DNA of 64,000 nucleotides from Sneathiella aquimaris (lineage in GTDB: Bacteria > Pseudomonadota > Alphaproteobacteria > Sneathiellales > Sneathiellaceae), in the NCBI RefSeq assembly GCF_026409565.1, contig NZ_CP112881.1, positions 1,907,501-1,971,500 on the forward strand, written 5' to 3'. How positions within the stretch are numbered: position 1 is the first letter of the stretch; the number at the start of each line of letters is the position of its first letter. The notes beneath the pieces were generated by a model that had not been told where the DNA came from, made no database searches, and saw only the letters and a program-made list of their open reading frames with translations. Positions 7,597-64,000 of this stretch are shown one piece after another. The translations under genes were made by a program, and so were the position numbers.

Positions 7597-7606
7597 GTCT
7601 TTGACC

Positions 7607-10611: not shown

Positions 10612-10612
10612 A

Positions 10613-10969: not shown

Positions 10970-10979
10970 TCCGCCGCCC

Positions 10980-34195: not shown

Positions 34196-34227
34196 ATGGC
34201 TATCAAAGCATTTTAAAGGAACTAAAG

Positions 34228-37139: not shown

Positions 37140-37150
37140 GCCTAAACGTT

Positions 37151-47407: not shown

Positions 47408-47484
47408 TCAGGGATCCGGCAAAGTGAAATAGAAGTTCGCCAGTGTCGCAGTGGTAAGCAGATTTTGCAAGCAGGGAACAGCCG

Positions 47485-50088
47485 TTAATCTTGAGTTGTT
47501 TGAGAACCTGGTTTCGGAGTGAAATCGGCGTTTGCAAACTCATGAAGTTTTTCGATGGCTTCATCACATTTTTGCAGCAATTCGGGGATGCGTTTGAACG
47601 CCTTATCATATTTGTTTTCTTTGCAAAGCGTATCGATTTGGATGGCGACACTCGATGCAGACATAAGTCCAAATTGGCCAAAGATGCTTTTCAACATATG
47701 AACCTCTCGGCGCAGCCTTTCAGTGTCCTTCTTATGATGTGCGGTTGTTATCTCCCTGTACCGGATTTCATACTGATCGAACATTTTTCGAACGAGGTTA
47801 TGAACTATCTTCGTTCCGAGTACGTCGGTAAGTTCATTAATGAAGTGCGGATCGAGAATAACGCTCGGGCGCGATTTTTTATGAGCTTTGGGTTGAATTT
47901 CCGGTATGCAATGTCCGGTTGCGTCTTTTTGCGCCGCGGTGGTGTTGGTTGTTCCGTATGGTTGCGTGGTGTGCTTAAACAGACAAAGAACCAGTCCGTT
48001 TTGCGAAAAATGGGTAATCTGGAGTGAGACGATATCAGGACCCAGTTGAACGTCAGGAACAGTTTGGGCCCGGGGTTTTGCGTTTGGGCTCTCCGCATGG
48101 CTGGTGAGATGGAAGATCAAGTCCCGGTTTCGATCAAGGTCGATCTTCAGGAAACGGATTAAATCAGTGTAGTGCGATCCTTCTTTGAACGTTTTACGAT
48201 TGAGATCGAGCATTTCGAATAAATCGGTGTTGCAGGAGACAAGAATGTGCTGATCGTCAAAAATGCAAATACCGGCGGGAATACCGGCCAGCATATCCTT
48301 TAGAATGGACTGATTGTTCAAAATCGATGTTTCCGACGGCTGAAAACCAGCCGTATCAGTCCAAATTTCGATACTACCGGATGACGGTAATCGGATTTCA
48401 CAGAATTGCAATATCCTGCCGTCGGACCATTTCTGCAAGATCCAGTCATGCCCCTGTTTATGTTCTTTAAGACGCCGTTGTATCCAGTGTTGCTCCGATC
48501 CCACTGCGTCAGTAACTTTACCGCTATAGGCTGACGCCGTAAGCAACTCGACAAATTCCAGACCGGGCTCAATTATCCCTTTAAATTGATTGTTAAACCT
48601 AACAAACCTGTCATTGAAAAGGATCAACCGGTCGTGTTGATCAAAGGTTGCAATTCCTGCGGGGAGTTTCTCCAGAAGTTCCAGAACGAGAGTTTCCTGA
48701 TCAGCAATGCTTTGGGTGTGGGAAACTCGAACGTAAAGGCCCGCGAGTAGCTCGGTGATTGATTTGGAAATATCCAGAAACAGCGTATCCAGCGGTGCCG
48801 GTTTTGTTCTGAAAAATTCAAGGATAGCTACGGTTTTGTTATCAACGATAACCGGCAGACCAAAACCGGATTTTAATCCTGATGCTCTAAAGGCATCCAG
48901 TCGTCTGAAGTCAGTATTGTCTGACACGTCTGTCAGACAGGATAGCTGGCAGGTTTCCCATATCGTCCCAGTGAACCCTTGCCCATATTCAATCTCCTTA
49001 TCAATCGTCGCTTTCTGAAACGCGGCAAAACGTTCGGGCGTGTCAGAAAACCAATGATGTTTAAACGCGTCTGTTTCCGGGTTAATGACAAGCGCATGAC
49101 CCAGATCCCATTGTCCAAATCGCGTGAGAATTTTGACATTTTTGTACAGGGCATCTGTAAAGCTTGTTGAAGCAGTCGCAATGGAGGTCCCCTTGTTCAG
49201 AATATCAATTGCAACAGTCTGTCGGTTAGCGATTGCCGAGAGTGATTTTTCCTTCTGCAAGATCCTGAGAGACCGGGCCAGAAGTCCGGCAAACAAAAAC
49301 AGATATCCGAGAGTTCGGCTGAGTTCCTGCCCGATAGTATCAAAAAGAAGACTGTGTCCTTGTTTACCGAAAATCCAAAGCGTTGGAAAAAGGAGCGAAA
49401 GCACCATCAAAAAAAGCCAGAAGTCTGCACGGTACGGGGACAGGTGCTTTCTGGTGGCAAAGATGAGTGCGGCTCCGCTTTGGATACCCAGAAGGCCGAG
49501 CAGGATGGGTATTAAATGGTCTGCAAAAAATTCTGAAATAGGGATGACTTCGCCAAACAGACTTATTCCTGAAGTAATCAGGAAGAATATACTGAACAAC
49601 AGATAGACACTTTTTGAAGAAAAGGGCGTGTTGATAAAACGGGTTCGGTGAAGCGCTATAACACCGGACATCACGGTTAGAAACAGTACAATAAAGAACG
49701 AATAGTAGGACAAGGCGGTCTTGGAATAATCAAAAGTCCGCATAGGATTAAAATGAGGGAGGGAGGCAAAACGTTCACCTTCAAAAAAGACGGCACCGCC
49801 CAACAACAGGATAAGAAGAAGAGAAAAACGGGTAGGGTTTCTATAATGAAATATGAAGATCGATATAAAAAGGATGCCACTCAAGAGAATATTGGCGGAT
49901 TGCATGGAAAGACTGAATTCCGCTGTTTGTTTGGCTCCTAGCCACAGTGTTGCCAGGAGCGGGGGTAAGACGATGGTTAGGATTAATCCCATAGTAAGAT
50001 AATCCGGGTTCCCTAATGATCGTCGCCTGATATCCGGGATTACCCGGGCGCGCTTTCGGTCCTGATGGCTATCACTGAAGAAGGCCAT
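47485..50088 (-). CDS. Membrane sensor with GAF, two PAS and a C-terminal HPt domain, no kinase
   Basis: 867 residues. About eight membrane helices in residues 30-285, a GAF-like domain at about 295-460 (TRFGQWDLGHALVINPE, SGFGLPVIVDNKTVAILEFF), PAS 1 at about 485-600 (LEKLPAGIATFDQHDRLILF), PAS 2 at about 625-735 (LAGIPAGICIFDDQHILVSC), and a C-terminal HPt with His797 in RLRREVHMLKSIFGQFGLMS. No HisKA, HATPase, GGDEF or receiver is present, so it cannot phosphorylate itself in the usual way. Its start overlaps the HATPase gene by 17 bases. Probably the last gene of the chemosensory block. Confidence 0.82.
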   Translation of the reverse strand: MAFFSDSHQDRKRARVIPDIRRRSLGNPDYLTMGLILTIVLPPLLATLWLGAKQTAEFSLSMQSANILLSGILFISIFIFHYRNPTRFSLLLILLLGGAVFFEGERFASLPHFNPMRTFDYSKTALSYYSFFIVLFLTVMSGVIALHRTRFINTPFSSKSVYLLFSIFFLITSGISLFGEVIPISEFFADHLIPILLGLLGIQSGAALIFATRKHLSPYRADFWLFLMVLSLLFPTLWIFGKQGHSLLFDTIGQELSRTLGYLFLFAGLLARSLRILQKEKSLSAIANRQTVAIDILNKGTSIATASTSFTDALYKNVKILTRFGQWDLGHALVINPETDAFKHHWFSDTPERFAAFQKATIDKEIEYGQGFTGTIWETCQLSCLTDVSDNTDFRRLDAFRASGLKSGFGLPVIVDNKTVAILEFFRTKPAPLDTLFLDISKSITELLAGLYVRVSHTQSIADQETLVLELLEKLPAGIATFDQHDRLILFNDRFVRFNNQFKGIIEPGLEFVELLTASAYSGKVTDAVGSEQHWIQRRLKEHKQGHDWILQKWSDGRILQFCEIRLPSSGSIEIWTDTAGFQPSETSILNNQSILKDMLAGIPAGICIFDDQHILVSCNTDLFEMLDLNRKTFKEGSHYTDLIRFLKIDLDRNRDLIFHLTSHAESPNAKPRAQTVPDVQLGPDIVSLQITHFSQNGLVLCLFKHTTQPYGTTNTTAAQKDATGHCIPEIQPKAHKKSRPSVILDPHFINELTDVLGTKIVHNLVRKMFDQYEIRYREITTAHHKKDTERLRREVHMLKSIFGQFGLMSASSVAIQIDTLCKENKYDKAFKRIPELLQKCDEAIEKLHEFANADFTPKPGSQTTQD

Positions 50089-51010
50089 TATCAGCCTGAC
50101 GTAATATGCTCACTTTGACCTGATTGCCGCGTCCCAGATATTCCAGATCGTCGAAACAGATTTGTTTCGCCACCTGAATACCTCGTCCATGAAAGCTGGT
50201 AAAATTATCCAAAGACATTCTTTTGGGTTTTTGGGGCAAGGCATCCAGATATTCTGACACGTTAAAGCCCGGTCCTTCATCGGAGATCGTGAAACTTATT
50301 CCGTCTGGTGTTTGTACAAATTCAATTGTTGCGGACCGTTTTCCAAGGTCTGGATCAAGAAGTCGTTTCAAAATCTCGGACTGCCATCTTCCAGCATTAA
50401 GTAACTGTCCCTTTTCTTCAAAAGAAATTTCAAGATTTCCGTGCTCAATACTGTTGATCATAAGTTCAAGCAATCCAACCGCAGCGTCACTGCTGTTCGG
50501 GCAGATCAGGGAAAGAAGTTGGGAGAGTGATTTTGCTTCTGAAAGTGTCCGGTAGGTAAAAGATCCTTTTGTCATTGCTTTCAACGAATGAACAACGGAA
50601 TTCAGGTCCTCACTTAACGCCTTTTTCTGCTGATAATGACGATGGTAATCGGTCACAGTGTTTCTAACCGCATCCACGTCGATAGGGAGCGGAAGGATCT
50701 CCGAAGCTTGTGCCAGTAAGCCGGGTACCATGGTTTCAATATCGTCCGGATTGAGAAGCAGAACCAGTGAAACATCCGTGAAGCGGGAATCTCCCAAGGT
50801 ATCTGCTAGTCGGTTATTAAGTGTTGGGGAGCACTGGGTGAGATCGACCACAATGACCCGTGGATCTTCAGCAATCATGTGAGGGGTTTCAACAAACGCA
50901 TTGGCCGATAAAATGGAAAAGTTGGATCCCGTTTCAGTCAAATGGTCAAATGCAGGAGGTTGTTGTTCCGTTGAATAGAGAAGCAAGGCTTGCTCGGCGT
51001 TAGACGACAT
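50072..51010 (-). CDS. Receiver-like plus HATPase_c protein (RsbW-like anti-sigma/switch kinase)
   Basis: 312 residues from the ATG at 51010 (one at 51025 is possible); both overlap the phosphatase gene. Residues 1-130 resemble a receiver (DPRVIVVDLTQCSPTLNN, ILPLPIDVDAVRNTV) without its normal acidic pair. Residues about 150-310 are an HATPase_c domain: N box LLELMINSIEHGNLEIS, G1 box SDEGPGFNVSEYL, G2 region FHGRGIQVAKQICFDDLEYL. The layout fits a switch protein that binds a STAS antagonist. Its target (sigma factor or other) is not visible here. Confidence 0.8.
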   Translation of the reverse strand: MSSNAEQALLLYSTEQQPPAFDHLTETGSNFSILSANAFVETPHMIAEDPRVIVVDLTQCSPTLNNRLADTLGDSRFTDVSLVLLLNPDDIETMVPGLLAQASEILPLPIDVDAVRNTVTDYHRHYQQKKALSEDLNSVVHSLKAMTKGSFTYRTLSEAKSLSQLLSLICPNSSDAAVGLLELMINSIEHGNLEISFEEKGQLLNAGRWQSEILKRLLDPDLGKRSATIEFVQTPDGISFTISDEGPGFNVSEYLDALPQKPKRMSLDNFTSFHGRGIQVAKQICFDDLEYLGRGNQVKVSILRQADNGLLQ

Positions 51011-52253
51011 TGGCGTGCCCCTCATTTTTAATATGTATAATGGTTAGATCATCGTCAGCATGGGACCCTACGCGTTGATGGAAACGGTCGATCAGTTCTG
51101 AAAGCGATTTGGAGGGGGAATGTTCGTGGTACGCCTTCCAAATTTCATTTACTTCCTGTTCAAGCCCTTTTTCCCCGAGAAATCCCCCGTCCATGAGATC
51201 AACTTCAACCAATGCATCACTATATAAAATCAATTGCGCACCGATTGGAAAGTCTACAATGTTCACCGCATAATCCCAGTCAGGCCTTAATCCCAGTGGC
51301 ATTCCTTTTGACTCAAGAAGTGAAAAAGAATCGAAAGGGGCGCTGCTTTGTTTTAATAACGGCGGCTGTGTTCCCGCCGCTGAATATTCAAGGACATTGT
51401 TTGTCAGATCGAGACACCCAAACAGCATGGTTGCATAGGATCCTCTGGGCAAACTCTGATACAGAAACTGATTAAGTGCCTTCAGAAGCAGATCTGGTTG
51501 GTCATATAAACTGGTCGATGAACTAAGCCAGGTCTGCATCCTGAATGTATTGAGTGCGGCCGCCACACCATGACCTGAGAAATCTGCGATATAAAAAGCG
51601 ATCCGGTTTTCGTCGATGGGGTAAATGCCACCGATATCACCGCCCAATTCGGAGGAAGGCTCATAATGCCAGCCAATTCGTAATCCATAAAGAGAGTGAA
51701 ATGATATAAGTTCTTCTTCTGATGGGCAAATATCCAATTGCAATTGACGCGCCTGTTCAAGTTCGCTAGCCACCCGATCATGAAAGTCGGTCAGCTTTTC
51801 AACAAAAAATCGGTGTTCCAGATGGACTTTTGTACGCGCCAGGATTTCAAACTTTTTGATGGGCTTTACGATCATATCGGTGGCCCCTAGATCAAAGGCC
51901 CGCGTGATGTCTGCCGCAGTGTCGCGGCCGCTCTGAATTAAGATAGGAATACTGGCTGTTGACTGACGGGACCGAAGTTCTTTGCATAGTTCGAAGCCAT
52001 CCATGATGGGCATTTCAAGATCAAGGATTATAAGATCCGGAACTTGAAGTTCGATCACCTCTAACGCATCCTGTCCGTTTTCCGCATAACTGATGTTGAA
52101 ATACCCATCGGTCATTAGGCATGCACAGATTAATTCTCTGATTAGGTCAGAGTCATCAACAACCAGGATACGGGCATTCTTAATTTTCACATCATGGCGT
52201 GTTTTCAGTAGTTCGATAGTCGATTGGGTTTCACTGGCAGCAGAAGACATCAT
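51000..52253 (-). CDS. Receiver-PP2C (RsbU/SpoIIE-type) phosphatase response regulator
   Basis: 417 residues. Receiver at about 25-145 with the acidic pair VVDDSD, phosphoacceptor Asp78 in LIILDLEMPIMDGFE and Lys in DMIVKPIKKFE. A short coiled linker (DRVASELEQARQLQLDICP) leads to a PP2C domain: SSELGGDIGGIYPIDENRIA, ADFSGHGVAAALNTF, FGCLDLTNNVLEYSAAGTQP, LILYSDALVEV and ADDDLTIIHIK; the metal-binding Asp residues are kept. It should dephosphorylate the STAS antagonist encoded directly upstream (52264-52572) when its receiver is phosphorylated. Confidence 0.9.
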   Translation of the reverse strand: MMSSAASETQSTIELLKTRHDVKIKNARILVVDDSDLIRELICACLMTDGYFNISYAENGQDALEVIELQVPDLIILDLEMPIMDGFELCKELRSRQSTASIPILIQSGRDTAADITRAFDLGATDMIVKPIKKFEILARTKVHLEHRFFVEKLTDFHDRVASELEQARQLQLDICPSEEELISFHSLYGLRIGWHYEPSSELGGDIGGIYPIDENRIAFYIADFSGHGVAAALNTFRMQTWLSSSTSLYDQPDLLLKALNQFLYQSLPRGSYATMLFGCLDLTNNVLEYSAAGTQPPLLKQSSAPFDSFSLLESKGMPLGLRPDWDYAVNIVDFPIGAQLILYSDALVEVDLMDGGFLGEKGLEQEVNEIWKAYHEHSPSKSLSELIDRFHQRVGSHADDDLTIIHIKNEGHANVV

Positions 52254-52263
52254 CAGAACCTGT

Positions 52264-52572
52264 TCAGTCGTGCGTAATAGTCATTACTCGGTCAAATTGG
52301 GAAATTTCCAGCAATCGCTTAACCTGACCGGTTGGGGAACGGATCTCAAATCCAACTCCTTCTTTTTCGGCAGTTTCAAAGGCGATCATTAGCATCCCGA
52401 GGCCTGCGCTATCGATACTTTCAAGATGTTTTAGATCTATCTGACACTGACTTTGCTGATCTTTGTTTACCATCTTTAGAAGTTCACGAAATTTGTTGTG
52501 ATCTTCAAATGTTAGTTTTTCAGAGATTACTATCTCCAAAGTGCCATCAGACTTGTTTACCTGTTCTTTCAT
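52264..52572 (-). CDS. STAS-domain anti-sigma-factor antagonist (RsbV-like)
   Basis: 102 residues from the ATG at 52572, seven bases after GGAG; the ATG two codons earlier sits too close to it. Full STAS domain: EIVISEKLTFEDHNKFRELL, CQIDLKHLESIDSAGLGMLM and EIRSPTGQVKRLLEISQFD. The phosphorylatable Ser is the one in SIDSAGLGML (residue 55). It lies 10 bases before the PP2C gene and 15 bases after the soluble MCP gene. The STAS/HATPase/PP2C trio is the classical partner-switching set. Confidence 0.9.
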   Translation of the reverse strand: MKEQVNKSDGTLEIVISEKLTFEDHNKFRELLKMVNKDQQSQCQIDLKHLESIDSAGLGMLMIAFETAEKEGVGFEIRSPTGQVKRLLEISQFDRVMTITHD

Positions 52573-52587
52573 AAACATACTCCAATG

Positions 52588-53874
52588 TTAAAAGAGTTCG
52601 ATGTTGTCATCGTCATCGTCATCGCCATCGTCGCCAACGTCGCCATGACCGCTGTTGCTCGATTTTTGGTCGTTGCCGGTTTGGTCAAAAAGTCCATCAG
52701 TGTGGCCCCCTTCGGTCGGTTCTGGTGTTTGCGTTCCATGGACTGCGACATGGAACCGATCCCTCATTTCAGCCAATTTGACGGCCGCTACAATCTCGTT
52801 GATCCATTCCTGTTCGCTCAAGTCTGTTTCAAGCGGACCAGCATGCTGTGCCGTTAGTTCTTCGCAGGATTGCAGCGTTTGCATCGAAATTTGAGCAATG
52901 GAACACAGATTTTCCAGATGCTGGGTCGCGCGATCCTGGAATTGGAGCTGCGTGATAACGCCTGCTATATCCTGTGATATATCCTTTGATATTTCTTCAG
53001 ACGATTTCAGGGCATCGGTATAATTATTGTTTTGCAGGACAATGCAATCCATCAGGTCCTTGATGGTGTCCTTGACCAATATGTTTTCCGATAGATCAAT
53101 ATTGGTAACTTCCTTAATTTGGGTATGTCCATCTCGAACGCCCGTCGCGACTTTAGAGACTTCCTGGCGCATGGTTGCCGCGAGTGAGTTAACGGATTTC
53201 GCCAGATCCTGAACTTCATGAGCAACAACCGCAAACCCTTTTCCAGCGTCGCCTGCACGGGCCGCTTCAATGCGGGCATTCAGGGCCAATAGATTTGTCT
53301 GTTTGTTAATGCCTTCAATGCCATCAATAAGCTTTTCAACCCGGACAACATCCTCTGCGACATCATCAAGCGCGTAAACAACCTTTACCCCATGTTTTGA
53401 TGTCTCGACGATTTTGTTGACCATTTCGGAAAGGTGTTTGTCGATATTTGCCACCACTTCCGAAAGGTCAATTGGCTTACCCCGATATTCAACATGTTTC
53501 GCCGCGCCCGCGAGATCACTTACCTTGCGGCCCTGTTCGCTGGTATGAAGCGCGAGGTCGCGAAAGGTTGAGGAAATTTTTGAAATGTTTGTTTCAACAA
53601 GGTCCGAAATGCCAGTCATTTCGTCCATCATAAAATACAGGATTTTTCGCTGCCCCTGAGAAAGAGACGCCCATTTATTTAAAAGTGCGGCTGGCTCATA
53701 GGATGGCTCTTCCGTGGGCAAACTAATTTCATCAGGTTCGTTCATGAGCATCGGTGTTTCATCTGCTGTCGTAATTGGCTCAGAGAGATCGGCAGTAATT
53801 GTGTTGTCTTCCGGTTCCGTATTCATGCTGTGTGCATTCATAAGTTTGTCCTGGCTATGCATGTACGCCGCCAT
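52588..53874 (-). CDS. Soluble methyl-accepting chemotaxis-type protein with acidic tail
   Basis: 428 residues, no membrane segment. AAGGAG lies seven bases before the ATG. The signalling hairpin reads [32 protein letters not shown], with the usual Glu/Gln-flanked tip. N-terminal Glu/Pro-rich lead of about 60 residues. The C-terminus runs into an Asp-rich string (VGDDGDDDDDDNIELF) coded by a trinucleotide-like repeat at 52607-52645. No CheR-docking Trp pentapeptide. It sits between cheB and the partner-switch genes, so it may link the two halves. Confidence 0.88.
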   Translation of the reverse strand: MAAYMHSQDKLMNAHSMNTEPEDNTITADLSEPITTADETPMLMNEPDEISLPTEEPSYEPAALLNKWASLSQGQRKILYFMMDEMTGISDLVETNISKISSTFRDLALHTSEQGRKVSDLAGAAKHVEYRGKPIDLSEVVANIDKHLSEMVNKIVETSKHGVKVVYALDDVAEDVVRVEKLIDGIEGINKQTNLLALNARIEAARAGDAGKGFAVVAHEVQDLAKSVNSLAATMRQEVSKVATGVRDGHTQIKEVTNIDLSENILVKDTIKDLMDCIVLQNNNYTDALKSSEEISKDISQDIAGVITQLQFQDRATQHLENLCSIAQISMQTLQSCEELTAQHAGPLETDLSEQEWINEIVAAVKLAEMRDRFHVAVHGTQTPEPTEGGHTDGLFDQTGNDQKSSNSGHGDVGDDGDDDDDDNIELF

Positions 53875-53916
53875 AGTTTTCTCCTTTTGTGCAAAGCACA
53901 GACAAGATGATGGTGA

Positions 53917-54981
53917 TCATATTCGGATTGCCTTTGTGTCGTAGCCTTCGAGGCAGTTGAAAATTTCAGAGGCAATTTTACTGAGGGGATACTGTGTTTC
54001 GACGGCACCGCATTCAAACGCGACTTTCGGCATGCCATACACGATACTGGAGGCCTCATCCTGTCCAATGGTGTGGGCACCTGACTTTCTTAAGTTCAAA
54101 AGACCGGACGCGCCATCTCGTCCCATTCCGGTTAGGATGACACCGACCGCGTTGGCGCCCGCCGTTTTCGCTCCGGAATTAAACAGGGTATCCACAGAAG
54201 GTTTGTGTCCGCTAACCAACGGGCCATCATGCAATCGGCAGATATAGTTCGCCCCTGATCGTGCCAGCTCCATATGTTTGCCGCCGGGCGCAATATATAC
54301 ATGACCGGGCAGAACACGTTGCCCGGCGCTCGCTTCGCAGACAGTCACTTTTGAAACCTGATTGAGGCGCTGTGCAAATGACGTTGTAAAGGTCGCAGGC
54401 ATATGTTGGGTCACCATCACAGCCGGACTGTTGGGCGGAAGGACGGTGATAATTTCCTTGAGCGCTTCAACACCTCCCGTCGAGGCACCGATTAAAATGA
54501 TCTGTTCTGTTGATTTGTAACGGCTGTAGGTAAGGGGGGACTTGGAAACAGGTGACTTGGTTTTGGAGAATATCCGGGCACGAGAGGCCGTTTTTACTTT
54601 CGTGATGATTTCCGCTGTCTTTTTCTCCAGCCCATGTTGCAGGTCACTGGTGGGTTTCGCGACATAATCAACTGCGCCTAATTCAAGCGCTTGTAAAGCC
54701 ACGTCCGCGCCTTCCTGAGTGAGGGAGGAAATCATGACTACGGGCATGGGGCGCAAGGTGATTATTTTTTCCAGAAAGGCCAGTCCATCCATTTTCGGCA
54801 TTTCAATATCGAGGGTTAGAACATCAGGGTTCAATCGCTTGATCATCTCGCGGGCTGTAATCGGATCTGGGGCTGTACCCAAAACAGTTATATTCGGATC
54901 AGACTCCAGCATTTTTGTAAGCATCTGACGGATTAACGCAGAGTCATCTACAATAAGAACTGTTATTTTTTTTTGGCTCAT
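53917..54981 (-). CDS. cheB: Chemotaxis methylesterase/deamidase CheB
   Basis: 354 residues. Receiver at 1-125 with VDDSALIRQML and phosphoacceptor Asp58 in LTLDIEMPKMDGLAF. A linker of about 40 residues leads to the methylesterase domain with the catalytic triad: Ser in LIGASTGGVEALKEI, His in VTQHMPATFTTSFA and Asp in ILTGMGRDGASGLL. It removes methyl groups from MCPs. It lies nine bases after cheD in the order cheR-cheD-cheB. Confidence 0.95.
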   Translation of the reverse strand: MSQKKITVLIVDDSALIRQMLTKMLESDPNITVLGTAPDPITAREMIKRLNPDVLTLDIEMPKMDGLAFLEKIITLRPMPVVMISSLTQEGADVALQALELGAVDYVAKPTSDLQHGLEKKTAEIITKVKTASRARIFSKTKSPVSKSPLTYSRYKSTEQIILIGASTGGVEALKEIITVLPPNSPAVMVTQHMPATFTTSFAQRLNQVSKVTVCEASAGQRVLPGHVYIAPGGKHMELARSGANYICRLHDGPLVSGHKPSVDTLFNSGAKTAGANAVGVILTGMGRDGASGLLNLRKSGAHTIGQDEASSIVYGMPKVAFECGAVETQYPLSKIASEIFNCLEGYDTKAIRI

Positions 54982-54990
54982 TGGATATTC

Positions 54991-55638
54991 CTAAAACAGA
55001 TCAACTTCACCACCGGCATCGATGGCATCAGGCAGACGTACACGATATTCGTTTTCTTCTTTGAGATAGACGGCATCATCTGAACGTTTGAGAAGCAGGC
55101 GGTCGACCTTACCGGTTTCCGGAAAATAGTGGATGCGCCGAGCATGAGGACCACCAAGGTCATGAGCCAATGGTGCCAAGCCTTCAAATTTCAAGTAATT
55201 AAGGGCGAACTGACCGTTATTGTCGCCCACCTTCACAATCCCCGGAGTGACGTTGCCACCACCAAAAAGTTTGATTTCCAGTCTCTCTTTCGGGCAACCG
55301 GTTTTGAGGATGGCGTTGATCAATGTTTCCATTGCGAAGTTTCCATATCGCATTGTGGCACTTACTGCTCCCCAGTTTCCGGTACTGCTTTCTGGCAACA
55401 TAAAATGGTTCATTCCGCCAATACCGGTCTCAGGATCCCGGATGCAGGCTGCAACGCACGATCCCAGAATGGTTACAATCATTTCATTTCGGTGCGTACT
55501 GACATAGTGATCGCCCGGTAAAACCCGAACAACGTTCTTGTCATGCTTTGGATCGTAATAGCTGCGCCGACCGCTTTGCATCGCGGTTAGGATTTTTTCT
55601 GGCTGCCTACGATCAGCCTGCTTTATGGGGGAGGGCAT
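54991..55638 (-). CDS. cheD: Chemoreceptor glutamine deamidase CheD
   Basis: 215 residues. Catalytic Cys in TILGSCVAACIRD, His in GIGGMNHFMLPE and Thr region in KLFGGGNVTPGIVKVGDNN. The N-terminal 45 residues and the C-terminal acidic tail (DAIDAGGEVDLF) go beyond the core. It lies four bases after cheR and nine before cheB. Its presence together with CheB and CheR indicates a full adaptation system. Confidence 0.94.
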   Translation of the reverse strand: MPSPIKQADRRQPEKILTAMQSGRRSYYDPKHDKNVVRVLPGDHYVSTHRNEMIVTILGSCVAACIRDPETGIGGMNHFMLPESSTGNWGAVSATMRYGNFAMETLINAILKTGCPKERLEIKLFGGGNVTPGIVKVGDNNGQFALNYLKFEGLAPLAHDLGGPHARRIHYFPETGKVDRLLLKRSDDAVYLKEENEYRVRLPDAIDAGGEVDLF

Positions 55639-55642
55639 GTTT

Positions 55643-56506
55643 TTACTCCTCCTTCTGGTAGGCGGTTCGACCGATAAGGGTCAATCCTTTGATCTTGGTT
55701 TGCAGGGATTCAGAGTGACCGAGAAATAACATACCGCCCGGGCGTAACAGATCAGTATAGCGCTTGACCAACATGTGTTTTGTTTCTGCGTCAAAATAGA
55801 TAAGAACATTTCGGCAAAATATAGCGTCATATTTCTGTTTCATCGGCCACGGGTGCAATAGATTGAGTTGCTTGAAATGAACCAATGCTTTTGTGCGGTC
55901 CCGTATGTATATTTTGTCGCCTTTTTTTGTCGTGTTGTCGTTGAATACACGGCGGTATTCTGACGGAATGTCTTTGATTGCATTCACGGAATATTGACCC
56001 GCTTTTCCGGTATCCAGCATATTTGTATCTAGATCTGTCGCCAGGATTTTAACATCCCACTGGGCTAGGGACGGAAACCGGGTCAGAACAGTCGAGGCAA
56101 TAGAATAGGGCTCTTCGCCCGACGAACAGCCAGCAGACCAGAAAAATACTTTTTTGTCGCCGGACCGTCTGGCGGTGTCTGATTGAATGCGACCGATATG
56201 GTCCGTTAGAAAATCAAAATGGTGGCTTTCACGGTAAAATTTAGTCAGGTTTGTGGTAATAGCGTTGACCAGAAAACCTGTTTCCTGGTTTGCATTTTGG
56301 CTATCCAGCAGGGCGCAGTATTGGGCAAATGACTGCATGCCCAACTTTCTCAGACGACGCGCCAATCGGCCGTAAACCATTTCTTTCTTATGATCACCCA
56401 GTACAATACCCGTAAGTTCCCTTACAATACCGGTCAGTCTTTTAAACTCGGTATCAGTAAAAGCAAACTCACTCTCACTGGATGTAGTCTGGCCGTTTGG
56501 GTTCAT
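55643..56506 (-). CDS. cheR: Chemotaxis methyltransferase CheR
   Basis: 287 residues. N-terminal helical CheR-N (KRLTGIVRELTGIVLGDHKK, YGRLARRLRKLGMQSF), then the SAM-binding domain with FFWSAGCSSGEEPYSIA, KILATDLDTNML, IFCRNVLIYFDAET and GGMLFLGHSESL. It methylates MCP glutamates. A perfect hairpin stands between the upstream mcp and this gene. The partner MCP ends in a DWSEF pentapeptide of the CheR-docking type. Confidence 0.95.
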   Translation of the reverse strand: MNPNGQTTSSESEFAFTDTEFKRLTGIVRELTGIVLGDHKKEMVYGRLARRLRKLGMQSFAQYCALLDSQNANQETGFLVNAITTNLTKFYRESHHFDFLTDHIGRIQSDTARRSGDKKVFFWSAGCSSGEEPYSIASTVLTRFPSLAQWDVKILATDLDTNMLDTGKAGQYSVNAIKDIPSEYRRVFNDNTTKKGDKIYIRDRTKALVHFKQLNLLHPWPMKQKYDAIFCRNVLIYFDAETKHMLVKRYTDLLRPGGMLFLGHSESLQTKIKGLTLIGRTAYQKEE

Positions 56507-56523
56507 TTTTTTCTTTCCGGATA

Positions 56524-56550
56524 CCCCTCCTGTCAGCGTTACAGGAGGGG
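56524..56550. repeat. Perfect intercistronic hairpin between mcp and cheR
   Basis: Arms CCCCTCCTGT (56524-56533) and ACAGGAGGGG (56541-56550) form a ten-base-pair stem around a seven-base loop. It fills the 57-base gap between the mcp stop and the cheR start. No T-run follows on the minus strand, so it looks like an mRNA-stabilising or partial attenuation element that lowers expression of cheR onward, rather than a full terminator. Confidence 0.75.
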
Positions 56551-56563
56551 ATTAAAGGTGGAC

Positions 56564-59500
56564 TTAAAACTCGCTCCAGTCCTCGGCGGCTGATGAGCCG
56601 TTTGCACCAGCGGATTTCGCCATCGGCATAGACGAGGGCGTTGGTGCGGACTGATACGCCGGGGCCGGGGCGTCAGCGCGGGCCTGGACTTTTTTCCGTT
56701 TTGGACGCGCACCTTGCGTTTTTTCAAGCTGGAAGAAAGAAACCCTGTCGCGCATCCCTTCGGACTGTTCCTGCAAGGTGCGGGACGCTGCGGCATTTTG
56801 CTCAACCAATGCAGAGTTTTGCTGTGTCATCTCGTCCATTTGAGAAACAGAGCGATTAATCTCTTCAATGCTTGTTGATTGTTCATTGCTGGCTGCCGCA
56901 ATTTCAGAGACAATATCGCTTAGGCGGCGAATTGAATCGACGATTTCAGTCAGGGATTCACCTGCGTTTCCGACAAGTTGGACACCGTCTTTTACTTGCG
57001 ATCCACTGTCATTGATTAGGCCTTTGATATCTTTCGCGGCCTGGGACGAGCGTTGGGCGAGGGTGCCGACTTCAGCAGCAACCACAGCAAAGCCTTTACC
57101 AGCGTCTCCGGCACGGGCCGCTTCCACCGCAGCGTTTAACGCCAGCAGGTTTGTCTGGAAGGCAATTTCATCAATAACACCAATGATGTCAGAGATTTTT
57201 TGTGACGAGTCTTCAATGCGTGACATGGCATCAACTACTTCGCCGACAACTTCACCACCTTTTGTCGCAACATCACGCGCCGAAATCGAAAGCTGGTTTG
57301 CCTGTTGGGCGTTTTCAGCATTCTGTTTAACAGTAGAGGCCATTTCTTCCATGGCTGCGGCTGTTTCTTCAAGGTTAGAGGCTTGCTGTTCCGTTCTTTG
57401 GGACAGGTCCATTGTGCCGGTGTTGATCTCTTGTGCGGCGCTTGCCACCTCAGAGGATGCGGCCGTAATATCGCTGACGATCTCTGAAAGTTGATCCGCT
57501 GTATTATTGGCATTCGTTTTCAGGGCATCGAACAAGCCAGCATATTCTTTTTCAATGCGCCGGGTCAGATTGCCGTCTGAAAGAGCAGAGAGCGACTGTC
57601 CCACATCTTCCATCGCGTCAGATACTGTGTTTGACAGAGAATTGATGGCTTCGGATAATTTAAGCATAAAGCCTTCTTTACCCTCCAGCTCGAGTTTGGT
57701 TGAGAAATCGCCACTGACAGCGGCCGTAACAACTTTGTCGATCTCAACTTCGATGCTCCGTTCAGCCGTAATATCGGCCCATTCAACAACAGTCCCAATG
57801 CGTTCACCATCGTCATTCGTAACCGGACTTGCGATCAGATTATAATGGCGCCCCCCAATTTCGATATCCGTATTAAAGGCACTTGTTAACCGATCGAGCA
57901 TGCCCCGTTGGTGGGCCGGGTTTTTGTGGAAAATATCAATATTTGCACCGACAATTTTTCGAGCATCGAATTGAGGCAGATCTTTTTTCATATCTGCATC
58001 GTTGCGGGTAAGCATCTCGTCCATAGTTGTGTTGATATAGACGATATTATAATCCGCATCGGCGACCATCATATTGGTCGTGCAATTGTTCAGCGCAGAT
58101 TTGATGCGAGAATTTTCATTCGCAACACGTTGCTCGTCACGTTCTCTTGCAAGTTTTTCGGTAACATCAGCCCACTCAACAACCGTACCAATACGGTGAC
58201 CGGCGTCGTCGATGATAGGGGATACGACCAGATCAAAATCCAGTCCACCAACCTGAAGAGAGGCTTCCATAGTGTTGCGAAGCCCGTCCAGCATCTGGCG
58301 TTGATGAGCCGGATTTTTATGAAAGGTATCAATATTGGTTCCGATGATGCCTGCGGCATTAAATTTTGGTAGATCCTTTCGGAGGTCGCTTTCATTGCTG
58401 TGAAGCATATCAATCATGGTTTGGTTGACGTAAACAATGTTGTAGTCGGTATCAGCGACCATTACATTGGTCCGACAACTGTCGAGTGCTGTTTTGGTTC
58501 TAAGATTTTCTTCCGACTGTGCCACAATCATTTCAAGTGAACGACTGACGGCGGCGATCTCGTCTTCCTTCTGGGGATCGGGGAGGACCGCCCTTTTGCC
58601 TTGAGCAATATTACTAACGCCTTCTACAAGCTGTTTTAAAGGCCCCGCAATGGCGCGAGACGTAAAGAATGCGATCGCGGTAGAGCAGATGATTCCGATG
58701 GCCAATAGCGACCAAAGAAGGGTTACCAAAGAGTCGGATTGATTGGTTACCGTGGTCATGTTGGTTTCCAGGGTTGCCCGTTCTCCAGACACTAAACCTG
58801 CTGACTGAGTTCCATCGGCCTGTTTATGGCCCCTTAGAATTGTCAGGAGAGATTCTGCTTTTGGGGTTGCATCTGTTTCCAGATAATGGGCGGCAAGGTC
58901 CCATTTATTAGACTGACGAATTGCAACAATCTTAGATGAAAAACTGTTGAATTTATTTATGAAATCAATGTTCTGGTCGAGAATGCGAGCCTGTCCCCGG
59001 TTGACCAGATTGCGATTTTCCTCCAAACGTTGAAGCTGAACTGCGAGGGTTTCAGCCGCTTTATTAAAAGCGCTCAATGCAACAGTGCTTCCGTTCAACA
59101 GATAGGAGTTAAGCAGGCTGCCACTTTTTAGAAGTGTGGCTTCTACATTGACAATATCAACGAGCATCGTGCGGTTATCCTGAAGCGTATTTTCCGGATT
59201 CAGGTTTTTGGCCAACGTCGCCAGCATCGCTGCCATTTGGTCAATGAGCGGTAGCATCGTCGTGTTGAATTCCGTTACATCCGGACGCTGATCGGCACTG
59301 TGAGCAATATCCTCAACGCGTTTCTGGGCTGTCTTGAAATCTGCTAGAGTTGCCATAAAGCGCTGCCATTCAGCCTGCTTCTCGGCTGGCCACTTCGATG
59401 ACAGGGCTGTGAGCGCCGAAACGCTTTTGTCCATGGCTTGCATCGTGGCCTGTCGGTCGTTTTTATAAGCCGGGTTGCCAGATGCCATCCATCCATGCAG

Positions 59501-59764
59501 GTCAGCCTGTGTCCGAACAATTTCTCTTTCGATATCAGCAGCCGTAAAAGCAATAGGGACTGTGACCTCTTTTGCAAGATGGATTGTGTCTTGCTGTTTT
59601 CTGGCATCCAGAACCGTTATACCGACGGCAATCGCTAAAACCGCGGTGACCACAGTAAAGCCTGCAATCAGTTTTGATTTAATGGTCAAATTGGGAATAA
59701 AAGATTTTTTCTTGGTAGCTTCGTTGAGGTCTGACCCGCCAGAAGTTGTTATTGTATTCGTCAT
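56564..59764 (-). CDS. Membrane methyl-accepting chemotaxis protein with tandem PAS domains
   Basis: 1066 residues from the ATG at 59764 (AAGGA nine bases upstream); the frame is open further upstream without support. TM1 near 30-50 ([20 protein letters not shown]), a long helical periplasmic sensor, TM2 near 360 ([20 protein letters not shown]), HAMP, two near-identical PAS domains of about 115 residues ([20 protein letters not shown] and [20 protein letters not shown]), a second HAMP-like part and the MCP signalling hairpin ([20 protein letters not shown]). C-terminal EDWSEF is an xWxxF docking site for CheR/CheB. Confidence 0.92.
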
Positions 59765-59789
59765 GTTTTCTATCCTTATGCAAAGTCCA

Positions 59790-60347
59790 CTACGCTGACA
59801 GGTCTTCAGCAGTTTCGACTGTTTGTTCAATAATCTCGGATTTAAACAGGCTCGCTGTGTCCAGCAGGGCGACCATGCGCTCTTCTGCGGTAACGAGCCC
59901 GATGATATGTTCCCCTTCCTCGCGGTCATCGATATCCGGAACGGGCCTGATTTCACTGCTGTCCACTGTTAGTATGTCAGACACGCGATCAACCAGAATT
60001 CCGATAATCCGGTCTCCCACGGCAATAATCACCACGACATGAATGTTCGTGGCGTTTGTTTTGCCTTGGTTGAACCGAGATCGAAGATCAAAAATTGGTA
60101 CGATAATGCCACGCAGATTCAAAACACCGCGCATGTAGGAGGGTTGGTTCGGTAGAATAGTGACCTCCGTCCAGGCTTGAATTTCCCGCACCTGCATAAT
60201 GTCGACTGCATATTCCTCGCTGCCGATTGCAAAGGTGACGAATTGCTGGGTTCCGACCCTTTCATGGTTATTCTCACCAGCCTTATCACCCTCGACCGGG
60301 CGATTGATCATTTGGGCTTGCATTTGCTCGTTTTGCGCAGCTTCCAT
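59790..60347 (-). CDS. cheW: Chemotaxis coupling protein CheW
   Basis: 185 residues. A polar lead of about 30 residues precedes one CheW domain: [55 protein letters not shown]-type motif (here [15 protein letters not shown]) and [17 protein letters not shown]. It couples the MCPs to CheA. It lies four bases after cheA and 25 before the mcp. Confidence 0.95.
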
Positions 60348-60351
60348 GTGC

Positions 60352-62547
60352 TTATCCTATAGGTGAAGTTTGAAGGGGGGCGGCGTCTGACGGAAGAATT
60401 GACGTTTCATCCATCTCAAGAGGTGAAAAAGTCTCACTTGATCTTTCGATGTAACCCTCCTGATCGTAGGAACCATTTTTGATCATTTTTTGGGAGAGGC
60501 TGTAGAGGGCCTCTATATCAAGGATCGGAGCGACTTTTCCGTTGCCCAGAATTGTGGCCGCTGAAATTCCGGAAACCGGCTTGTAATTGGATTCAAGGCT
60601 TTTAATGACGACCTGCTGTTGACCAATAAGCTGATCTACCACAATGCCGATTGTGCCAAATTCTTCGCTTTCGACGAGAACAACCAGCGCTTTGGCCGGA
60701 TCCTGCGTTGCATTCTCAATTTTAAAAATATGGCTCAGCGGGCATAACGGAATATATTCTCCGCGAATACGCACAAGCGCCTGACCATTTGGCAGTTTTT
60801 TCAAGGCATCGCGTGGGGGGCGAAAACTTTCGACGATGTTTGGAATGGGGATGACATATTTTGAAAGTCCAACCTCTACAATCATGCCATCCATGACAGC
60901 AAGTGTTAGCGGCAACGTCATCGTAAAGCGCGAGCCTTTACCGGGCGCAGAATGAATAGACACACGACCGCCAAGCGCCTGAATATTGCGGCGAACCACA
61001 TCCATACCCACACCTCTACCAGACACGTCAGTCACTGTTTCCGCTGTGGAAAAACCTGGCGCAAAAATCATGTTATCGATTTCATCATCCGGTGGTGTCG
61101 CATTTTCGGCGATCAGACCCCGATCCCGGGCGCGTTTCAAAACAGCCTGACGGTTGATACCACGGCCATCATCTGAAATCGTGATCACGATCCGTCCACC
61201 TCTATGTTCGGCAGAAAGCGTTACAGATCCTTCTTCAGGTTTTCCTGCGGCCAACCGTTCTTCAGCGGTTTCCAGACCGTGATCGAGCGAATTTCGGATC
61301 ATATGGGTAATTGGGTCGCTGATTTCTTCGATAACAGTTTTATCGACCTCTGTGTTTTCGCCGATCGTTACCAGTTTTACTTTCTTGTTTAATTTCACGG
61401 AAAGTTCCCGAACCAGACGGGGCATTCTGGAAAATACCGATTTCACTGGCTGCATCCGGATCGCCATAACGCTTTCCTGTAATTCTCGGGTGTGAAGGGC
61501 CAGTTCCTCCAGACCACGCGACATATTTGGAAATTGGTCGCTGGGTAGTTCATTGGTTTGCTGGGATAACATGGACTGTGTAATGACCAACTCACCAACC
61601 ATATTCACCAAGCGGTCAATGCGGTCTAGGTCAACCCGTATTGATGTAACTTTTGACGCTGCCGGAGGACTGTTTGCCGGGTGTGGACTGTTTGGTTTTT
61701 CCGCGGATTTTTTGGCGTTGGATTGAGCATCATCAGGCACATTTTCTGACTGGTTTTCAGCGGGCGCAGGCTTGTTTGGATTATCCTCGAGAACGGAAAT
61801 GTTGAGCGTGCAATCTTCGGTGACAAACTCAAAAACCTCTTCGACATCTTCCAAAGAGGCGCTTGTTTCAAGGAGAAATTCCCATGAGATATAGGCTTCT
61901 TCAGCATCCATCTTTGTAATTAGGGGTAGGTTGTCCAGATTTGGTATGGCCTTTAGTGTACCCAAAGCTTTCATTTCGCGGACCAAAAGAAGAGGCTCAT
62001 TAGCATGCTTGAACAACTCTGACTTTGGGGCAAATGAAATTGAATAGGTTTGGGTGGTTGTATCCGCAGGACTCTCAGGATCTGCATTCGACGCATCGGA
62101 TGAAGGACTATCCTGTGTTTCAGACGAGGCCGTTGATTTGTTGTCGGTTTTCTCAGGGTCTTTTCCATGAACAGTGCTTGAAATCTCGTCGAGGATTTGT
62201 TTGCCAAAATCCGAAGAAAGCTCTTGCTCATGTTCAGCGGCTTCTATCATCGCGGACAGGATGTCGGACGCGCGAAAAAGGAGGTCGATCCCTTCGTTCG
62301 TGACAGCGATGCGCCCATCCCGCATTCGATCCAGAAGGGCTTCATATTCATGAGAGAATTCCGCTAGACTCGTAAATTTGAAAGCACCTGCCCCTGCTTT
62401 GATGGAATGGACCGCCCGGAAGATTGCATGCAATATTTCAGGATCGTCTGATCCAGAACTCAATGAGGAGAGTTGAATTTCAACATCTCCCAAGAGTTCT
62501 GCGCATTCGGCGAAATAGGTTATTTTGAATTGTGCAAAATCATCCAT
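60352..62547 (-). CDS. cheA: Chemotaxis histidine kinase CheA
   Basis: 731 residues. P1/HPt with His47 in AIFRAVHSIKAGAGAFKFTS; a Ser/Asp-rich linker; a P2-like domain at about 165-260 (SISFAPKSELFKHANEPLLL); P3 dimerisation with VNMVGELVITQSMLSQQ; P4 kinase with N box HMIRNSLDHGLETAEERLAA, G boxes SDDGRGINRQAV and GRGVGMDVVRRNI; and a CheW-like P5 ending near LGNGKVAPILDIEALY. All catalytic parts are intact. It should feed CheY, CheB and perhaps the receiver-PP2C protein. Confidence 0.95.
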   Translation of the reverse strand: MDDFAQFKITYFAECAELLGDVEIQLSSLSSGSDDPEILHAIFRAVHSIKAGAGAFKFTSLAEFSHEYEALLDRMRDGRIAVTNEGIDLLFRASDILSAMIEAAEHEQELSSDFGKQILDEISSTVHGKDPEKTDNKSTASSETQDSPSSDASNADPESPADTTTQTYSISFAPKSELFKHANEPLLLVREMKALGTLKAIPNLDNLPLITKMDAEEAYISWEFLLETSASLEDVEEVFEFVTEDCTLNISVLEDNPNKPAPAENQSENVPDDAQSNAKKSAEKPNSPHPANSPPAASKVTSIRVDLDRIDRLVNMVGELVITQSMLSQQTNELPSDQFPNMSRGLEELALHTRELQESVMAIRMQPVKSVFSRMPRLVRELSVKLNKKVKLVTIGENTEVDKTVIEEISDPITHMIRNSLDHGLETAEERLAAGKPEEGSVTLSAEHRGGRIVITISDDGRGINRQAVLKRARDRGLIAENATPPDDEIDNMIFAPGFSTAETVTDVSGRGVGMDVVRRNIQALGGRVSIHSAPGKGSRFTMTLPLTLAVMDGMIVEVGLSKYVIPIPNIVESFRPPRDALKKLPNGQALVRIRGEYIPLCPLSHIFKIENATQDPAKALVVLVESEEFGTIGIVVDQLIGQQQVVIKSLESNYKPVSGISAATILGNGKVAPILDIEALYSLSQKMIKNGSYDQEGYIERSSETFSPLEMDETSILPSDAAPLQTSPIG

Positions 62548-62576
62548 GGTCCATATGTCCGATCAAGAGTTTTGGT

Positions 62577-62942
62577 TTAACTGCAAACTTTTTGAACGAC
62601 TTTCAGGAGCTTCTCTGGTTCAAACGGTTTGACGATCCAACCGGTTGCTCCGGCGGCGCGACCTTCATCTTTTTTAGAGCTGTCGCTTTCAGTCGTAAGA
62701 ACGAGAATAGGGGTAGAACTATGGACCGGGTTTTGACGAAGTGCTTTGACCAGACCGATCCCATCCATGTTTGGCATGTTGATGTCGGTGATAACCAAAT
62801 CGACAGCGTTGTTTCCGATCGCATCCAGAGCGAGCAATCCGTCTTCCGCTTCAACCACGTCGTAACCGGCGCCCTTGAGGGTAAAGCTGACCATGTCTCG
62901 CATCGTTTTTGAGTCATCGACGGCAAGGATCTTTTTTGACAT
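62577..62942 (-). CDS. cheY: Response regulator CheY
   Basis: 121 residues, single receiver domain. Acidic pair ILAVDDSKTMR, phosphoacceptor Asp53 in LVITDINMPNMDGIGL, Thr in ILVLTTESDS and Lys in GWIVKPFEPEKL. All key residues are present. The start overlaps the STAS gene stop by one base (TAATG). It lies 29 bases before cheA. Confidence 0.95.
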   Translation of the reverse strand: MSKKILAVDDSKTMRDMVSFTLKGAGYDVVEAEDGLLALDAIGNNAVDLVITDINMPNMDGIGLVKALRQNPVHSSTPILVLTTESDSSKKDEGRAAGATGWIVKPFEPEKLLKVVQKVCS

Positions 62943-63244
62943 TATTTGTCACTCCATTTTTGATAGATATCCATTAGACCCAAATCATCAAAGGCCTGAA
63001 TGAAGGGTGTGCTTGGGCTCAGAATGGTGAAAGTATCGCCGTTTTTCTCCATGGTTTTCCCGGCTGAAATGATGACCTGCAAACAGGGTGTCGTCAGATT
63101 AGTGACGTCTGATGCATTACAAACAAGACTGGAATGCGCTACTAATGAGTGTGTGAATTTTTCTTTTAACTCTTCGGCGGCAGCTAGGTTCAATACTGGC
63201 GGGAAGTGTAAGACAGTATCTTCCAAGCAATTTTTTTCAACCAT
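62942..63244 (-). CDS. STAS-domain protein at the head of the chemosensory operon
   Basis: 100 residues. STAS fold: LHFPPVLNLAAAEELKEKFT, LVCNASDVTNLTTPCLQVII, FTILSPSTPFIQAFDDLGLM. At the position of the phosphorylated Ser of RsbV-type proteins it has LTTPCLQ, so phosphorylation may be on Thr or be lost. Small STAS proteins upstream of cheY-cheA are known in other chemosensory operons. First gene of the block. Confidence 0.85.
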   Translation of the reverse strand: MVEKNCLEDTVLHFPPVLNLAAAEELKEKFTHSLVAHSSLVCNASDVTNLTTPCLQVIISAGKTMEKNGDTFTILSPSTPFIQAFDDLGLMDIYQKWSDK

Positions 63245-63694
63245 GGTGTTGGAGCCCTTTTAACACGGAAGTCTCAGATTTTAGTTCTTTGGATGTGGCG
63301 ATGAACTAATACTAACTGTGTATATAAGATGTTAATTAGTGGTTAAAAAAATTAACGATAGGATGTTTTGCGAGTATTTTATTTATGTTTATACGTGTCG
63401 AAACAAAAAAGGTTGTTTGTATCAGAAAAATATTGTCTTGTGAGTACATCGCCTTTTCATTAAAAAAAATTATTTTAAATCAATTAGTTAATGTTTGTTT
63501 ATGAAGTGTTTTTACGATTCACTTATCCAAAGTTGGATTGTTTTAATGAGTTGGTTTGGTTTTTGTAAATTTAGAAAAGTAGTGATAATATGATATGATA
63601 ATTTAATAAACTTAGTTGATTCTAATAATAAAACAAAGGTAGTAGATCGCGTGAATTTTTAAAACATGTTCAAATAGACGTATTGGAAACTGTC
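63245..63694. other. AT-rich divergent promoter region
   Basis: 450 very AT-rich bases with no open frame of note, between the leftward STAS-che operon and the rightward partial gene. It must carry promoters for both. Poly-T and poly-A tracts and several TTGTTT/AATTAA-type stretches are present, but no single sigma-factor pair stands out by eye. Bases 63660-63690 contain GGAAA shortly before the ATG at 63695. Confidence 0.5.
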
Positions 63695-64000
63695 ATGGCG
63701 AATTCGATACCAAAGATCAGGAACAAATTAATTTCTATTTTAATCGTTCAAGATGAAAAGGGTGAGTGCAACAAAATTAAATTAGGTGTTGAAAATAGTC
63801 TTTTTACGAGTGTTCGGATAATGGCATTTGAGGCAGTCCGCGAGACCCTTAAAAAAGATCGTCGCCCGGCTCTGGTGATACTGGATGCGACGGCCTTTGA
63901 TGATAGGGTTTTAGAACGTGTGCCTGAGCTTATCAGTATGCACGAGTTGCCGGACATATCTCTTCTGTATATTGTTGATCGAAAAATGATGGGACGAGGC
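63695..64000 (+). CDS. Receiver-like signalling protein, N-terminal part only
   Basis: 102 residues are visible from the ATG at 63695 to the window edge, in an unbroken frame. The alternating pattern resembles a receiver: a first strand LISILIVQDEKGE, a helix AFEAVRETLKK, a third strand ending in the candidate phosphoacceptor Asp (RPALVILDATAFDD), then ISLLYIVDRKM. The N-terminal acidic pair is only partly kept (QDE). It diverges from the chemosensory operon. The output domain is outside the window. Confidence 0.55.
   Translation, partial: MANSIPKIRNKLISILIVQDEKGECNKIKLGVENSLFTSVRIMAFEAVRETLKKDRRPALVILDATAFDDRVLERVPELISMHELPDISLLYIVDRKMMGRG

Follow-up and report, generated by a model that had tools for sequence, protein, structure and literature searches.

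What does a chemosensory operon control when it runs on, almost without gaps, into the genes of a partner switch, and what does a soluble methyl-accepting chemotaxis protein (MCP) do within such an operon? These questions are raised by a 64,000-nucleotide stretch of the Sneathiella aquimaris genome (contig NZ_CP112881.1, positions 1,907,501 to 1,971,500), referred to here as the window. Judged from its sequence, this alphaproteobacterial operon belongs to the F7 chemosensory systems with stage 1 gene order, a kind that has already been described; its new features beyond that kind are a soluble receptor, McpS, with a CheZ-like motif and a terminal Hpt protein without a kinase core. As a joint explanation, we propose an F7 operon combined with a partner switch, in which McpS would act as an array-docked, CheZ-like phosphatase, a proposal that we consider evenly poised between right and wrong.

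The operon comprises 13 genes, which coordinates and Pfam matches place on the minus strand from 63244 to 47485 in a near-gapless series: STAS1-cheY-cheA-cheW-mcp-cheR-cheD-cheB-soluble mcp-STAS2-REC/PP2C-pseudoreceiver/HATPase-sensor/Hpt. The encoded proteins are the following.

62942..63244, minus strand: STAS1, the first STAS protein (Pfam STAS_2/STAS)
62577..62942, minus strand: CheY, a single receiver (Pfam Response_reg)
60352..62547, minus strand: CheA, F7-type (Pfam and CheA tree)
59790..60347, minus strand: CheW (Pfam CheW)
56564..59776, minus strand: McpM receptor, with 4HB_MCP (weak), HAMP, PAS, PAS, HAMP and MCP domains and a DWSEF tether at its end (Pfam)
55643..56506, minus strand: CheR (Pfam)
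54991..55638, minus strand: CheD, C-terminus EVDLF (Pfam)
53917..54981, minus strand: CheB (Pfam)
52588..53874, minus strand: McpS, a McpA-like soluble MCP with the CheZ-like motif Q311-F312-x-D314-xxx-Q318 and an NIELF tail (Pfam and alignments)
52264..52578, minus strand: STAS2, anti-sigma-antagonist type, with a DSAGLGM site (Pfam)
51000..52253, minus strand: REC-PP2C phosphatase, SpoIIE/RsbU type (Pfam)
50072..51025, minus strand: degenerate receiver plus HATPase_c_2, an RsbW-like kinase (Pfam HATPase_c_2)
47485..50088, minus strand: GAF-PAS-PAS-Hpt protein of 867 amino acids (Pfam)

A sequence-only reading of this stretch had named these genes, their domains and their common direction, all of which were recovered. 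It had also put the gaps at about 40 bases or less, which holds for most junctions but not for mcp-cheR (57 bases) or cheB-soluble mcp (42 bases). STAS1 and cheY overlap by 1 base, and the other spacers measure 29 (cheY-cheA), 4 (cheA-cheW), 13 (cheW-mcp, with the mcp start set at 59776), 4 (cheR-cheD), 9 (cheD-cheB), 9 (soluble mcp-STAS2) and 10 bases (STAS2-PP2C). The PP2C and HATPase genes overlap by 26 bases (11 if the HATPase gene starts at the ATG at 51010), and the HATPase and Hpt genes overlap by 17. A consensus scan of positions 47000-64000 gave 19 promoter-like sites, compared to 22.6 (standard deviation, 4.2) in shuffled sequence, and 22 terminator-like sites, compared to 18.6 (standard deviation, 4.3). 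Matches across the scanned region thus lie within the shuffle range. At the junction of the soluble mcp and STAS2, where a strong promoter and terminator would separate the two gene sets, the closest minus-strand site (52612-52599) is a stem of 5 pairs and weak. No Rfam family was found in 44000-64000 at the gathering score.

Assignment to the F7 class draws on CheA phylogeny and on gene order. In a CheA tree that holds few other chemosensory classes, 47 of 77 tips form a clade with support of 1.0 that includes the CheA of the window, Vibrio F7 CheA and the chemotaxis CheA of Escherichia coli; hybrid CheA proteins and the second CheA of the S. aquimaris genome fall outside it. The published F7 stage 1 order is anti-sigma antagonist-cheY-cheA-two cheW-aer2-cheR-cheD-cheB-mcpA-anti-sigma antagonist-serine phosphatase (Ortega 2020, PMC7184735); in the passages of that paper dealing with F7, the alphaproteobacterial systems form one clade, and gene orders are described for the last five clades, gamma- and betaproteobacterial. 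As these passages present them, the F7 stage 1 clusters of Vibrio cholerae and Methylomicrobium alcaliphilum resemble the Sneathiella operon in gene order, CheA clade and a tether on the main receptor. The Sneathiella operon differs in being alphaproteobacterial, in having one cheW rather than two, in a main receptor that matches the Aer2 model only partially, in a kinase HATPase that has its own gene and a degenerate receiver, and in the additional Hpt protein. The match of this main receptor, McpM, to the Aer2 family model spans residues 550-1070, with 611 bits for the protein against a cut-off of 1200, and its Pfam 4HB_MCP_1 match of 23.8 bits is also under the cut-off (27). The McpM tail, DWSEF, is a tether of the pattern -x-[HFYW]-x(2)-[HFYW]. 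In CheY, the phospho-acceptor Asp and the Lys are kept in 66/66 relatives.

The gene order recurs in genus relatives, in other alphaproteobacterial families and in Vibrio, which is the conservation in relatives that the sequence-only reading had asked to be checked, and a chance arrangement is excluded because the order is kept in this way. Within the class, 21 of 289 genomes, the host included, contain a McpS relative (E ≤ 1e-25). Regions from these genomes, other loci of the genus, the window and Vibrio form a set of 29 loci, 21 of which have McpS, STAS2 and REC-PP2C in line (referred to here as the cassette). Phylum-wide, a McpS relative (E ≤ 1e-40) occurs in 68 of 398 genomes, again including the host. 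Here, 61 of 67 further places were taken (those left out being G344, G352, G391, G443, G469 and the second place of G320), duplicate loci L006 and L007 were dropped before counting, and 35 of 60 regions have the cassette in line; the related genomes in all of these counts are not independent. The profiled gene after McpS, meaning the next frame that matches one of 12 profiles, is STAS2 in 36 of the 60 regions and cheY-like in 12, four of the latter being frames of 612-620 amino acids. In a plasmid search with CheA and McpS, a Vibrio stretch showed the full order; in the stretches from Sinorhizobium, Leisingera and Sphingomonas, the related che clusters lacked the STAS2-PP2C cassette.

A second cluster type emerged from the phylum-wide regions, consisting of a CheA-receiver hybrid, cheW, mcpS, STAS2, REC-PP2C-HATPase, cheB, cheR and mostly two cheY genes. 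Among the 35 phylum-wide cassettes, 21 sit with such a hybrid, counted as a frame of >1050 amino acids (L277-L279, L283, L285, L287, L290-L297, L301, L306, L309, L322 and L324-L326). Four of the other 14 (L271, L280, L303 and L323) share the layout with a CheA frame that is shorter, cut or missing and were joined to the 21 for tree comparison. In trees of CheA, CheB, CheR, REC-PP2C, STAS2 and McpS, the two cluster types come apart with at most 1 locus misplaced in each, the pattern that a long working partnership between the cassette and its own CheA should leave. The partner-switch genes and the che genes can therefore be treated as one conserved unit, in agreement with the sequence-only reading, given the in-line cassettes and the trees that split together. 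The window encodes the HATPase in a gene of its own, whereas 34 of the 35 phylum-wide cassettes have it fused to REC-PP2C; Pfam shows the fusion in two alphaproteobacterial loci and the Vibrio one.

Residue conservation suggests which parts of the partner switch are functional. The Asp pair, Asp, Thr/Ser and Lys of the REC-PP2C receiver are kept in 50/50 proteins, as are the PP2C aspartates, and the PP2C His is kept in 49/50. STAS2 has its Asp-Ser in 61/61, and separate HATPase proteins retain the N-box Glu and Asn and the G boxes in 15/15. At the phosphorylation position of STAS1, there is no conserved Ser, mostly T/D followed by T/A, and a nearby Gln is invariant (27/27). The partner switch thus looks active, with STAS2 as its substrate, because the residues of REC-PP2C, STAS2 and the HATPase are kept while the STAS1 Ser is not. 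In the HATPase protein, the part that resembles a receiver has no Pfam match at E 0.1 and, in an alignment of 15 proteins, no conserved acidic pair and no conserved Lys. REC-PP2C is the sole SpoIIE-domain match across the host genome; its relatives include one from an alphaproteobacterial metagenome-assembled genome (74%, the closest), Sneathiella sp. NORP203 (66%) and S. glossodoripedis (63%).

The CrsR-CrsA and HsbR-HsbA systems, in the passages of PMC9855816 and PMC6482189 that describe them, share with the operon the combination of REC-PP2C, HATPase and STAS. CrsR and CrsA sit in the Shewanella Che1 (F7) locus and form a partner switch controlling RpoS (PMC9855816), and HsbR of Pseudomonas aeruginosa receives phosphate from the Hpt protein HptB (PMC6482189). 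In Sneathiella, the corresponding domains are split over two genes, and a target that would be the counterpart of RpoS was not identified. The host genome has 8 Sigma70_r2 matches; for the 4/8 sigma factors run against NCBIfam, the name RpoS does not appear among the best 25 matches, and two sigma factors of 300 and 304 amino acids are RpoH-like by eye only. Nor is any family common to the 10 proteins that follow the cassette at 9 loci in other families: a Lon-like protease, a metallo-lactamase, DnaB, a P-type ATPase, PAS, Hpt, FapA, HATPase and sulfatase proteins, and one without a family.

McpS carries an MCP signaling tip (MCPsignal, E 4.3e-25) and, about 117 residues behind it, a block with the motif QFxDxxxQ. 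Both D and Q are present in 89 of 94 homologues; these counts cover all 94, and the distance to the tip leaves out the 49 that lack the tip pattern. The remaining 5 are second tandem copies, in which the tail is gone as well (the second copies at loci L310, L314, L316, L317 and L319). The C-terminal tail reads [IV][ED][LMF]F in 88/94 and strictly [IV]ELF in 81/94; McpS of L304 has the motif and no tail. In an alignment of 29 homologues (L158 being cut at 420 residues there, with its tail missing), no 15-residue stretch outside the MCP tip is better conserved than the one with the motif, and McpS is the only one of the 19 MCPs of the host to show it behind the tip. Coiled-coil packing is an unlikely reason for this conservation: measured over the motif and what follows it, the D and Q residues point 125-180 degrees away from the hydrophobic direction. 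When the segment before the motif is used, the angles are smaller (D, 29-73 degrees; Q, 69-125 degrees), and a polar-face position is not supported.

The motif recalls CheZ, which reads FQDLTGQ in E. coli and FQDITGQ in the genus's own CheZ. With hhalign, the C-terminal half of McpS aligned to a CheZ profile of 11 sequences (E. coli and 10 from the genus) with a probability of 63.9 and a score of 37.6, the motifs being aligned with each other. Controls gave probabilities of 2.0 (McpM), 1.1 (other host MCPs) and 0.3 (McpS N-terminal helix), with scores of 14.6-20.8. With 88 McpS sequences, the probability rose to 87.1 and the score to 40.7, compared to a maximum of 17.1 among 200 column shuffles; neither observed score was reached by its 200 shuffles. 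Like E. coli CheZ, McpS has FxDxxxQ on its C-terminal helix, followed by a linker and an acidic/hydrophobic-rich C-terminal peptide; unlike CheZ, it has an MCP tip and no Pfam CheZ match, and the similarity is mostly confined to the motif. McpS is not filed as a CheZ because it matches no Pfam CheZ model and shows only profile-profile similarity. A search of the Protein Data Bank with the McpS profile listed 30 matches, which were MCP structures and chance matches, with no CheZ among them. None of the titles and abstract openings searched, mostly outside subscription journals, hints that McpA-like receptors carry a CheZ-like site.

The tail of McpS contains no CheR tether. A similar peptide is found at most 12 residues from the C-terminus in 43 of 52 CheD proteins when a looser pattern is used, and in this operon CheD and McpS share the terminal peptide type [IV][ED]LF. 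This tail may be a shared docking peptide for CheY or CheB. An IELF-like peptide is also present in the N-terminal part of McpS from L142 and L223, as if it were a repeated docking motif. McpA-like receptors, among them PA0180/CttP, VCA1088 and Shewanella McpA, are known to us from descriptions in which they resemble McpS in cluster position, absence of a CheR tether and a conserved C-terminus. One such description calls the McpA C-terminus strikingly conserved and of unclear role, with a valine where a CheR tether needs an aromatic residue (PMC7184735). A passage of PMC7534058 states that McpA-like genes always neighbor the F7 cluster, whereas McpS-like genes in our set also adjoin hybrid CheA genes outside the F7 clade.

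In the mechanism that we propose, McpM together with CheW would set the activity of CheA, which would phosphorylate CheY, CheB and probably also the receiver of REC-PP2C. Phosphorylated REC-PP2C would dephosphorylate the serine of STAS2, opposing the RsbW-like HATPase kinase, so that chemosensing would set the state of the partner switch and free or bind a target. McpS, rather than being a methylated receptor, would dock in the array through its MCP tip, and the surface DxxxQ pair on its C-terminal helix, together with the flexible [IV]ELF-type tail, would dephosphorylate CheY and/or the REC-PP2C receiver, in the way that CheZ acts on CheY. Its substrate could thus be CheY-P or the PP2C receiver.

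Several observations weigh against this proposal. Without the motif columns, whether taken out or masked, the comparison with CheZ scores 20.0-21.4, level with the best shuffles (maximum, 21.4), so that convergence on a short motif is possible. In single-sequence Pfam scans, window McpS has no CheZ (PF04344) match, and for 15 McpS homologues at E up to 10, CheZ is not among the matches listed (25 of 77 Pfam families). Homologues were collected with motif-containing profiles, by which relatives without the motif may be missed, and 28 of 89 McpS proteins (and 21/21 McpM) have a methylation-like site when one mismatch is allowed. The host genome encodes three separate CheZ-like proteins, and no target sigma factor is linked to the operon. 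Finally, in Shewanella it is the CheA of the swimming system, F6, and not that of F7, with which the McpA homologue clusters, according to the passages on it in PMC9855816. By analogy, McpS may also sit in a swimming array, an arrangement that fits a phosphatase and a mere bridge alike.

The bridge is the rival that deserves most weight, although we rate it clearly below the phosphatase. Here, McpS would have no enzymatic activity, and its motif and tail would bind CheD, CheB, CheY or the PP2C receiver, linking F7 to the swimming array. Polar clustering of Shewanella McpA depends on CheA3/CheW3 (PMC9855816, passages on McpA), the F7 arrays of V. cholerae and P. aeruginosa do not need their McpA-like receptors, whose conserved C-terminus is of unclear role (PMC7184735, likewise in part), and the similar tail of CheD may make this peptide a general docking element. 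What a bridge leaves unexplained is the CheZ-like spacing and flanking of invariant surface residues (FxDxxxQ). That the conserved glutamines are instead deamidation or methylation sites for CheD and CheR seems scarcely credible. In favor of such sites, Q311 comes 114 residues after the tip and Q318 121, seven residues from each other and roughly where E. coli Tar has its second methylation helix (with sites near 490 and 500 and the tip Asn at 379). Using what we take to be the methylation-site consensus of MCPs, window McpS has 0 sites with one mismatch allowed, whereas the other 18 host MCPs have 1 to 7 each; without mismatches, a site occurs in 3/89 McpS and 21/21 McpM proteins. These counts make methylation or deamidation an unlikely reason for the motif, and such sites would leave the invariant Asp unexplained.

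Two further alternatives concern the input to the switch. The genes may merely be cotranscribed, with CheA leaving the partner switch untouched; no phosphotransfer from CheA to the switch is reported in the literature passages on these systems, but the complete receiver residues in 50/50 proteins and a cassette kept beside two distant CheA types, with which it codiverges, make this improbable in our view. Somewhat less so, though still unlikely, is a PP2C receiver fed by the adjacent Hpt phosphorelay instead of by CheA, for which HptB and HsbR of P. aeruginosa offer the precedent (PMC6482189, in the part cited above). In G041 and G168 and, with another sensor, in L147, the cassette is followed by a hybrid kinase that ends in Hpt, and a lone Hpt follows PP2C in L159 and L160. 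Against such a feed stand the presence of Hpt downstream of REC-PP2C in only 9 of 50 loci, a count made with a narrow model built from 8 of those 9, and the window Hpt protein itself, which lacks a kinase core.

This last gene of the operon has an Hpt match of 24.3 bits (E 3.7e-5), just below the Pfam cut-off of 24.6. Another 7 genomes in the genus carry homologues of it, with frames from 1037 amino acids, in a copy truncated at the end of its contig, up to 1313. Three of the seven were scanned by Pfam and are hybrid kinases; HisKA and HATPase are found in all three, and REC and Hpt are found in the two complete ones, one Hpt being just under the cut-off. In the window protein, Pfam finds neither a HisKA-HATPase core nor REC: the sensor part extends to residue 723 and Hpt begins at 729, where G289 has ∼414 residues between the two. 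The protein cannot start a relay because it has no kinase core; it keeps Hpt and may open a second way for phosphate to reach the PP2C receiver, and by analogy with HptB it may pass phosphate to that receiver or drain phosphate from it. The lone Hpt frames of L159 (12404-12814) and L160 (3062-3487) overlap the end of the REC-PP2C frame.

As for output, the host genome (3.94 Mb, a single contig) encodes two CheA proteins, 19 MCPs, one SpoIIE domain, three CheZ-like proteins and FliG, and the second CheA lies at 3.020 Mb, ∼17 kb from FliG. Within the genus, FliG is found in 22 of 24 genomes (the two without it are 56% and 66% complete), and the PP2C gene of the operon is found in 10 of 24; the operon is therefore not required for flagella. 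The suggestion of the sequence-only reading that the output is something other than swimming is plausible on these grounds, and the operon probably steers gene regulation. Elsewhere in the window, genes for a TonB-dependent receptor, TonB, an ExbB-like protein and an ABC transporter run in one direction at 31209-38985, which we take by eye to be an iron/heme uptake locus, and 5679-13247 is presumably a multisubunit Na+/H+ antiporter (Mrp-type) operon.

The order kept in alphaproteobacteria shows that F7 systems are linked to a partner switch beyond the gamma- and betaproteobacteria as well. In the passages of Ortega 2020 that concern it (PMC7184735), cheZ, alongside F7 stage 1 or 2, occurs only in F6 clusters, and the role and C-terminal conservation of McpA-like receptors are left open. 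In our operon regions, the cheZ profile gave one match, itself MCP-like, an absence read from a narrow model because that profile holds 11 sequences. A CheZ-like site in McpA, if true, would bear on the role and C-terminus of McpA and on the restriction of cheZ to F6 clusters. We would extend the idea, with slightly less than even confidence, to McpA-like receptors across Pseudomonadota, which may be receptor-shaped phosphatases that bring a CheZ-type active site into a chemoreceptor array by means of their MCP tip, serve as the off-switch for clusters without cheZ and are tied to the neighboring partner-switch phosphatase.

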